Assembly (NCBI GenBank): GCA_020720115.1 | Contig: DYPD01000008.1 | Span: forward strand, 1 to 56,117 | DNA from: Thiomargarita sp. | GTDB lineage: Bacteria; Pseudomonadota; Gammaproteobacteria; Beggiatoales; Beggiatoaceae | Length of the DNA stretch: 56,117 nucleotides | Reading direction: 5' to 3' | Part shown: piece after piece, positions 24,591 through 54,000 of the stretch | Layout: every line of letters starts with the position of its first letter | How positions within the stretch are numbered: the stretch's first letter is position 1 | The notes under the pieces: generated by a model | What the model was told of the DNA's origin: nothing | Database searches by the model: none | The model's input: the letters and a program-made list of their open reading frames with translations, nothing else | Program-made: the position numbers and the translations under genes

Positions 24591-26243
24591 TTATTTATCT
24601 GGCAGGGGCGGTTCCCAGGCAGGTACGGTTTCTTTGGCTTGATTGAGCATGGCTTGGATGTCGCGGTTGTCTTTTTCCCACAACTGATCCAAAAGCTCGG
24701 TGGCAAGCTGTTCTGGGGCTTTCATGAGTACAGTGGCGGCAGCATAGAGCGCCTGCTGTACGGTTAATAATTCGGTATCATTTTCAAGCAAATCGTAATC
24801 GCTGATCAGCAAATGCAGATTTGCACAAAATAGCTTTTTACTGATCCAATCAAAGTTTAACAACAAGGATTTGAGTTCTGCCAGGCGTTTAGCGCCGAGC
24901 AAATGCCAACCCAGGTTTTGGTAAAAATAGCCGTCATCAGGTGCGCTACTCCAGCCTTGCTGCGCCAATCTGCCGTAAGCCGAGATCATGTGCAGATGGA
25001 GCTTGTCAAGATCGGAATTATCCTGGATGTAAGCATGTTGAAAAGCATGCAGGCTGATGTAATCGCCTTGCGGATGTGGGTGCAAATGCAGCAAGCCGGT
25101 TTCGGCAAATTGCTGGATGAGCTTTTGAATTTCCGCTGGTGGCAGGTTGAACATGTGTTGCCACAGCATACGAATGCTGTGCAAAGGGATGTGCGTGTAA
25201 TCAGCAAATACCGCCAACACTAAATAGCATTCGCCTTGCTCGCCGAGGCTTTCCAGATACAGATGCAACGTCATCATCAGATGATGATCGTAGCCTTCGG
25301 GAAATTCCCAGTCCTGGTCTTGCAAGCGTTCCAACAGATGCGCCCAAGCAATCGGTTTCTGCATGGCGGCTAAACTGGCGGTCAGTTGCAACGCCAGCGG
25401 ATTTTGTTGACAGCTTTGCACAATGGCGTCTAATTCTGCTGGCGGTTGATCTTCGCAATTGGCGCTGCTGAGCAGCAATCGCCCCGCTTGGGCGACGCTC
25501 AAGGCGGGCAGTTGAAAGCGGATCGCTTGACTGGCTTTGAAGCGCACGAAATCGTATAAATTCGGATTAACACAGGTAATCAGCACGCGGCAATTTGCAC
25601 CTAAGCTATTGATTGGCAAGATAGCGCCGAAATCTGGCACATCATCGAGAATAAACAAACAGGTACGGGCGGCAAACAGGTCTTGCATAAACTCAGTCGC
25701 CGTATCCAAATCAATGAAACCATGCGTGGTTTTACCCAGCGCCAGCGCAATGTCGGTGTAATGCTGGAACAAATGCGGCGCTTCTCCTAAGCCCAGCCAG
25801 AAAATCCCGTCTGGGAAGTGTTTTTGTACCTCGGCATCATGGGCTAAACGCGCTGCCAGCAGAGATTTACCCGTACCGCCAGGCGCATCAATCAGAATCG
25901 GGCTGTTTTGCGGATTAATGCCTTTCACTTGCAGCTTACTTTTAATCCCATCAAAGGCTGGTGTGTCTAAAATCAAATGCTTAGGCAGCGCAGGCACGAA
26001 AAACAGTTTTGAGTCTTGCTGCTTTTGCTGGGTTAAACCGGTCTTAAAGTTTTTCAGTTCTGGTTTTAATTCTTCCAGAGCAAACTCGATATTAGTGATA
26101 ATCTGTTGGGCAAGCTGGTCTTTTTGGGTAGCGTCAGAGAATTTTTCCAGGCTTTTTAAGTCACGCAGAACCTGGCTTAACAGGGTTTCGTAACGCTGTT
26201 CAAAAAATTGGATTTTTTCTTTTAAGAGTTGTTCCGTCATCAT
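24591..26243 (-). CDS. STAND NTPase, NB-ARC type, lacking a C-terminal sensor repeat domain
   Basis: 550 residues. Residues 1-85 are a charged coiled-coil-like helix. The NB-ARC core has a P-loop 119-128 ('DAPGGTGKSLLAARL'), Walker B 196-202 ('CLFILDDV'), RNBS-B-like 'ANCRVLITCVNPN' and a GLPL-like 'QQNPLALQLTASL'. A winged-helix/APAF-1-type helical region follows ('WEFPEGYDHHLMMTLHLYLE', 'VLAVFADYTHIPLHSIRMLW', 'LLLNFDWISKKL'). In bacterial NB-ARC/WD40 proteins this helical part leads directly into a WD40 propeller; here the protein stops after 'PAWEPPLPDK', with no propeller or TPR downstream. No enzymatic effector is visible at the N-terminus either. Possible roles are signalling or defence; neither is shown. 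Confidence 0.85.
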   Translation of the reverse strand: MMTEQLLKEKIQFFEQRYETLLSQVLRDLKSLEKFSDATQKDQLAQQIITNIEFALEELKPELKNFKTGLTQQKQQDSKLFFVPALPKHLILDTPAFDGIKSKLQVKGINPQNSPILIDAPGGTGKSLLAARLAHDAEVQKHFPDGIFWLGLGEAPHLFQHYTDIALALGKTTHGFIDLDTATEFMQDLFAARTCLFILDDVPDFGAILPINSLGANCRVLITCVNPNLYDFVRFKASQAIRFQLPALSVAQAGRLLLSSANCEDQPPAELDAIVQSCQQNPLALQLTASLAAMQKPIAWAHLLERLQDQDWEFPEGYDHHLMMTLHLYLESLGEQGECYLVLAVFADYTHIPLHSIRMLWQHMFNLPPAEIQKLIQQFAETGLLHLHPHPQGDYISLHAFQHAYIQDNSDLDKLHLHMISAYGRLAQQGWSSAPDDGYFYQNLGWHLLGAKRLAELKSLLLNFDWISKKLFCANLHLLISDYDLLENDTELLTVQQALYAAATVLMKAPEQLATELLDQLWEKDNRDIQAMLNQAKETVPAWEPPLPDK

Positions 26244-53026: not shown

Positions 53027-53106
53027 GGTCGCATAAGCGGTAGCATCACTTGTGCTGAGCTTGCCGAAGTATGCGACATTCGGAAGCTCCGAGATGGCGG
53101 ATTACG
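53027..53106. repeat. Palindromic repeat copy A, carrying an inserted REP-like motif
   Basis: GGTCGCATAAGCGGTAGCATCA is followed by 23 extra bases (CTTGTGCTGAGCTTGCCGAAGTA, 53049-53071) and then TGCGACATTCGG...GATGGCGGATTACG. Without the 23 bases it matches copies B and C (about 53.6 and 53.9 kb). Confidence 0.75.
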
Positions 53107-53131
53107 AGTTACGAGTTACGAGTTACGAGTT
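53104..53131 (+). repeat. 7-bp tandem repeat (ACGAGTT x4)
   Basis: Four exact units of ACGAGTT overlap the 3' end of the DUF4288 gene and encode its last residues and stop on the minus strand. Confidence 0.9.
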
Positions 53132-53651: not shown

Positions 53652-53825
53652 GTAGGTCGCATAAGCGATAGGAGGCTGTGAAACTATTCAATTTCAGGCG
53701 TTTTGTGCGACGAAGAATCAATGACTTACATGCAAAAAATCACTAAAAAACGACATTTTTCAGAATACTTTCACAGCCTCGATAGCGTCATGCGACATTT
53801 GGAAACTCCAAAATGGCGGATGACG
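53652..53825. repeat. Palindromic repeat copy B, split by a MITE
   Basis: GTAGGTCGCATAAGCGATAG, then a 109-bp insertion, then GATAGCGTCATGCGACATTTGG...GGCGGATGACG. Removing the insertion and one GATAG recreates copy C. The outer GTCGCAT...ATGCGAC and CGTCAT...ATGACG pairs make the repeat palindromic. Confidence 0.85.
53672..53780. mobile_element. 109-bp MITE with 18-bp terminal inverted repeats and 5-bp TSD
   Basis: The left end GAGGCTGTGAAACTATTC and the reverse complement of the right end GAGGCTGTGAAAGTATTC match in 17 of 18 positions. GATAG is present on both sides (53667-53671 and 53781-53785), as a target-site duplication. The interior is AT-rich and has no coding capacity, so it needs a transposase supplied in trans; none of matching ends is in the window. 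The track ORF 53703..53888 spans the element and is spurious. Confidence 0.88.
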
Positions 53826-53942: not shown

Positions 53943-54000
53943 GTAGGTCGCATAAGCGATAGCGTCATGCGACATTTGGGGGGCATCATGGCGGATGACG
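53943..54000. repeat. Palindromic repeat copy C (uninterrupted)
   Basis: GTAGGTCGCATAAGCGATAG-CGTCATGCGACATTTGG...GGCGGATGACG is intact, acting as an unoccupied reference for copies A and B. It ends four bases before the stop of the GNAT gene. Confidence 0.8.

Follow-up and report, generated by a model that had tools for sequence, protein, structure and literature searches.

Miniature IS1182-type elements of Thiomargarita sp. and its relatives sit in hairpin-forming repeats and appear to duplicate the hairpin loop

In DDE transposition, a given enzyme normally makes target duplications of near-constant length, since the distance between its two active sites is fixed by the transpososome. For the short elements of Thiomargarita sp. 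and its relatives described here, the length of the insertion scar seems to depend on the shape of the target and not on the enzyme alone. We consider it quite likely that these MITEs are mobilised in trans by a DDE transposase of the IS1182 family, and that the hairpin loop of the target, rather than a fixed stagger, determines the duplication length. With somewhat less confidence we also favour the fuller reading, in which the loop of a hairpin or cruciform dictates the length of a DDE duplication and an IHF-bent MITE colonises REP palindromes by structure-guided loop duplication.

The copy that opened the analysis lies in a 56,117-nt stretch of contig DYPD01000008.1 (assembly GCA_020720115.1), hereafter the window. 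As a sequence-only reading had proposed, it is a MITE inserted in another repeat, with a target duplication and an empty site that can be read nearby. The 109-bp insert, its near-perfect 18-bp inverted ends (17 of 18 positions complementary) and the GATAG on both sides were borne out to the base. Its parts, in window coordinates, are as follows.

53652–53666, + strand: left side of the host palindrome that the insert splits, GTAG tag followed by arm GTCGCATAAGC
53667–53671, + strand: GATAG, left target duplication
53672–53780, no strand assigned: MITE, non-autonomous IS1182-type element, 109 bp, without a spanning open reading frame
53672–53689, + strand: left terminal inverted repeat GAGGCTGTGAAACTATTC, matching the parent IS ends GAGGCTGTGAAAGTATT
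53716–53728, + strand: central IHF-consensus site AATCAATGACTTA (consensus WATCAANNNNTTR)
53763–53780, − strand: right terminal inverted repeat, reading GAGGCTGTGAAAGTATTC on the − strand
53781–53785, + strand: GATAG, right target duplication
53786–53796, + strand: right arm of the split palindrome, CGTCATGCGAC
53943–53973, + strand: empty (uninterrupted) host palindrome GTAGGTCGCATAAGCGATAGCGTCATGCGAC, folding z-score −4.2

The host palindrome is laid out as GTCGCATAAGC-GATAG-CGTCATGCGAC (11+5+11 bases) with the GTAG tag in front, and the insert sits exactly on its dyad. The insert flanks, joined and stripped of one GATAG, give the empty palindrome 158 bp away, which is the single such site in the window at up to three mismatches, with none expected in shuffles. 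This empty copy had been drawn as far as 54000; the palindrome core at 53943–53973 stands, and the longer end takes in repeat beyond the core. It is a paralogous repeat copy, and the relatives gave repeat matches only, with no orthologous pair with and without the insert for the window locus. Two more intact-core host copies elsewhere in the same genome (C135:1910-1982 and C13:8385-8455) indicate that the insert is not integral to the repeat; many host repeats in fact lack the 109 bp, contrary to the finding that was to have undone the nested-insertion claim. The element is thus short and non-coding, carries terminal inverted repeats and a target duplication, and is multicopy (84 MITE-size copies). 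No Rfam family covers the element or its host, one chance-level miRNA match elsewhere being all that was returned, and a plasmid collection held no sequence similar to the element.

Relatives were found in the organism’s own genome as well as in related genomes, where further copies had been expected. In the 3.86-Mb own genome, GAGGCTGTGAAA occurs three times (two in the window element, one in a truncated copy) against zero for the reversed control, and the search of this genome yielded two truncated relatives and one 99-bp relative of a second subfamily. The congeneric or sister genome of Thiotrichales bacterium BB31 (G001) contains 109-bp copies, and GATAG is duplicated at the related copies there, the opposite of the other outcome that had been named as fatal. 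Copies of 97–100 bp with ends GAGGCTGTAAAAGAAC occur in G001, G015, G019, G021, G022 and G024, and copies of 116–119 bp in G016. Altogether, 88 copies from the taxonomic family (86 of MITE size and two full-length ISs) were gathered from fetched stretches, nearly all genomes used being multi-contig drafts or metagenome assemblies. Copies were collected by end sequence alone and their flanks read afterwards, so that the hosts were unselected.

The parent transposase had been placed outside the window, and the whole own assembly, a draft of 185 contigs, likewise gave no match to the IS1182 transposase model NF033551 at E ≤ 0.001. The full-length IS with the same ends that the sequence-only reading had advised looking for is present in the BB31 genome (C148:352-2081, locus L085); it is 1730 bp long and has an intact 499-aa transposase frame that scores 353 bits against NF033551 (cut-off 270). 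This IS and the window MITE have the same ends, the same host repeat, the same base of insertion and the same GATAG duplication. Their first 17 bp are in common, and MITEs and full-length ISs generally have only about 17 bp of end sequence in common. The second full-length IS (L105:1397-3051) shares its ends with the second MITE subfamily, and its transposase, 42% identical to the first, is interrupted by stops; the element is flanked by a 3-bp GCC duplication equal to a 3-nt loop. No solved structure for the transposase was found by sequence. Judged from sequence, the parent transposase is no longer detectable in the own genome and is intact in the sister genome.

Most of the 88 copies lie at the middle of inverted repeats, that is, hairpin-forming, REP-like palindromes. 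The hosts of the GAAC subfamily are of the TTCCCA/TGGGAA, TTACCA/TGGTAA and TTCCAA/TTGGAA types, and that of the GTATTC subfamily is GTCGCAT/ATGCGAC. Inverted-repeat flanks (stem score of at least 7) were found at 65 of the 88 insertion sites and at 346 of 20,000 random sites. Uninterrupted hosts are common, and those in the same genomes have loops of 3, 4 and 5. Like the GTAG-tagged REPs (PMC3733652), the window host starts with GTAG, forms a palindromic stem with a short loop and is multicopy; it has not been assigned to one of the 24 published families. Beside those RAYT genes of the own and BB31 genomes, found by Pfam, that were examined, there were no host palindromes. RAYT remnants of the BB31 genome that score below the cut-off (59 and 26 bits) lie near TTCCC/TTACC-type hosts.

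Several further observations concern the repeats themselves. Decayed REP-associated tyrosine transposase genes adjoin MITE-bearing TTCCC/TTACC-type palindromes in G001 (L096:1497-1898 and L091:771-876), which suggests that such hosts are REPs with a degraded transposase of their own. Other copies of the window host palindrome hold a second nested repeat of about 25–40 nt (ACTTGTGCTGAGCTTG..CGAAGT type) between CGTC/CATC and ATGCGAC, at window positions 53027–53106 and, in the rest of the own genome (G000), at C66:33120-33350 (L276) and C115:36600-36800 (L274). A short tandem array, TTACGAG x4.3, follows a host repeat copy at 53102–53131.

To predict loops, one copy of the duplication was deleted and the resulting empty site was folded with DNA parameters; folding was used in place of a stem-finding rule that let the left and right loop copies pair and so gave false inner pairs. 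The duplication equals the loop, in all cases a predicted one, exactly in 46 of the 58 copies with 3–5-bp duplications (34 of 3, 5 of 4 and 7 of 5). After copies with common outer flanks and loop sequence were collapsed, 36 independent cases remained in which the duplication is 3 bp or longer, and 25 of these match exactly (15 of 3, 5 of 4 and 5 of 5). A central hairpin was predicted for 32 independent cases, exactly centred in 26; lengths agree in 25, and 0 of 100,000 permutations did as well. The 5-bp TSD first described is right for the window, but the duplication varies with the hairpin loop, being 3, 4 or 5 bp; this, the hairpin-directed insertion and the IHF-type site at the centre had escaped the sequence-only reading.

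Counter-evidence comes from the window’s own copy, which is not an exact loop match. Its imperfect host is predicted to form a 4-nt loop, ATAG, and the 5-bp GATAG duplication is this loop plus one base, centred on the dyad; the same pattern recurs in a G001 relative and in the full-length IS. Moreover, 24 of the 88 copies have no direct duplication of at least 2 bp. Many of these look chimeric: both junctions lie near the stem-loop boundary, the loops differ or are inverted (for example AAGT-GCC / GGC-GCTT), and the arms are often mismatched; such copies likely arose by exchange of flanks through recombination between MITEs. Examples with differing or inverted loops in G001 and G015 are L104, L145, L147, L088, L174, L073 and L068.

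Among 14 MITEs that cluster by single-step links at 95% identity or more, loops of 3, 4 and 5 carry duplications of 3, 4 and 5 bp. Another cluster, of nine MITEs in another genus, has duplications of 3 and 5, and MITEs of at least 95% identity occur in both orientations. A fixed stagger is unable to explain how such near-identical elements vary between 3, 4 and 5 bp in step with the loop. An ordinary MITE making a fixed 5-bp duplication at arbitrary sites would fit the window copy and also the GTATTC-type relatives, most of whose readable duplications are around 5 bp. Nevertheless, where the loop has 3 or 4 nt the duplication made by related elements is 3 or 4 bp, random sites seldom have such flanks, and the permutation test of the length match (0/100,000) refutes this account, to which we assign a negligible chance. 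It is also very improbable that a few ancestral insertions, one per loop type, were followed by joint spread of host repeat and MITE. The hosts are themselves repeats, and 24 copies fall in one flank-similarity cluster, as such spread would have it. Yet MITEs at least 95% identical occupy hosts with 3-, 4- and 5-nt loops in both orientations, 25 independent flank/loop combinations match and uninterrupted hosts are common, so that MITE relationships cutting across host types largely refute joint descent.

Harder to separate from a hairpin target is a duplex one, with one transposase subunit on each REP arm cutting at a fixed distance and no hairpin formed. Arm spacing would then set the duplication length, and the lengths predicted are the same as under the hairpin model; the TTCCCA-type arm core, common to many hosts, could also be read by such an enzyme. 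However, the arms next to the cut are varied (AAGC, ATGC, ACGC, AAAT, AAGT, ACGG), TTACC and TTCCAA types are used along with the unrelated GTCGCAT host of the GTATTC subfamily, and a rigid dimer would have to tolerate helical-phase changes of 1–2 bp. In addition, IS1272, of the same family, prefers hairpins only, with no primary sequence (PMC4923244). We therefore regard duplex-arm recognition as unlikely.

For insertion guided by a hairpin, a route can be proposed from what the analysis established, namely the family, its parent IS, the target dyads, the agreement of duplication and predicted loop, and the central motif; the recognised form (cruciform or single-strand hairpin), the strand-transfer geometry and the binding and role of IHF are what we infer. 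The transposase of an IS1182 element would pair both MITE ends, with IHF helping, and would bind a cruciform or hairpin extruded at a REP. Strand transfer would take place at the stem-loop boundary, the two 3′ ends being joined on opposite strands, each at the 5′ side of the loop. Gap repair synthesis would then copy the loop onto both sides, giving a duplication equal to the loop (3, 4 or 5 nt).

The part conserved between subfamilies is AATCAA-NNNN-TTA, which is the exact IHF consensus WATCAANNNNTTR as quoted in PMC5896051. Of 84 MITEs, 76 have an exact match to it, against 0.8% of shuffled interiors, and its position is 0.501 ± 0.016 of element length across subfamilies of 97–119 bp (in the window MITE, 44 bp lie to its left and 52 bp to its right). 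Among 36 non-redundant copies, the consensus columns show little or no variation (weakest T31/A5), less than the N4 spacer. Both full-length ISs lack an exact site, and the own genome encodes an IHF-alpha gene. In the whole window WATCAANNNNTTR occurs 14 times, against 3.4 expected in shuffles; a second IHF-core-like site, at 25602–25614, was considered as a MITE remnant and rejected on inspection. A 100-bp duplex is shorter than the DNA persistence length, and a sharp central bend would therefore help the ends to meet. The putative IHF-type site thus probably serves to bend the roughly 100-bp MITE so that its ends can pair, and a motif at the centre is what would be expected if bending unites them. 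We give a smaller though real chance to the motif regulating neighbouring genes, or having been inherited from a founder, with no help to transposition. An IHF site in a Correia element does regulate a neighbouring operon (review PMC10969869), but the centring across subfamilies and the near-invariant contact positions beside a varying N4 spacer speak against it here.

Within the transposase family, the elements resemble IS1272/TnSha1 of staphylococci in having an IS1182-family transposase, hairpin-capable inverted-repeat targets and insertion tied to stem-loop geometry. IS1272 targets hairpins, which it replaces without duplication (PMC5678879), and stem deletions without duplication have been described for the same element (PMC4923244). 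There the hairpin is deleted or replaced, with the cut in the stem or at its foot, whereas here, with targets that are likewise hairpins, the stem survives and a second copy of the loop is made, as 46 copies record. Loop duplication has been drawn only as hypothetical pathway c (Fig 13 of PMC5678879), and in the open full texts searched the loop-length scar has no earlier report beyond that drawing, although a description may exist elsewhere, for instance in ISfinder notes. Other IS1182 subgroups in other bacteria are counter-evidence, for they give fairly constant 3–4-bp duplications. Distant members in sphingomonads, which are single full-length copies, have 4-bp CACC/GGTG duplications near imperfect dyads, and another subgroup in other bacteria has 3-bp AAC/GTT duplications; in distant members loop-length dependence is not demonstrable from single copies. 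The AAC/GTT subgroup, with ends GAGGCTGTAGAAAAA, is found at L253, L258, L259, L261, L263, L269 and L272, and its sites (e.g., GGCGTT / GTTAGCC and CTAAC / AACG) resemble the core of integron attC, attC sites being hairpins.

Insertion into REP palindromes is also known for REP-targeting ISs (survey PMC1525189; ISPpu9, PMC8450116; IS1111, PMC5896051), among which IS1111 in Coxiella targets a GTAG-tagged REP (PMC5896051). The present elements differ in having an IS1182-family DDE enzyme as parent and a loop-length duplication as scar, which the accessible text of the three papers does not describe. Correia elements of Neisseria (PMC2649163) and QMITE1 of Coxiella (PMC5896051) are likewise short, non-autonomous elements that have terminal inverted repeats and contain an IHF consensus. 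QMITE1 is about 400 bp, the MITEs here being much shorter; compared with both, these MITEs have the IHF site at the exact centre, an IS1182 parent and hairpin targets. Abundant MITEs have been reported in a large sulfur bacterium of the Thiotrichales, Candidatus Thiomargarita nelsonii (PMC4853749). Its dsrA-intron MITE ends in 5-bp TATAG repeats, and its hupL MITE has 10-bp repeats and no parent found.

A single element type whose duplication is 3, 4 or 5 bp depending on the target's loop would mean that its enzyme reads DNA secondary structure. If so, each insertion is a record of an extruded hairpin, and the copies together form a natural library for testing structure-guided transposition. 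One transposase family would then include both an outcome that duplicates the loop and, in IS1272, one that deletes it. The bend site at the centre hints at the way in which elements of only about 100 bp, unable to loop freely at this length, unite their ends, and insertion at REP tips in intergenic space is a plausible way for them to multiply with little harm to the host.
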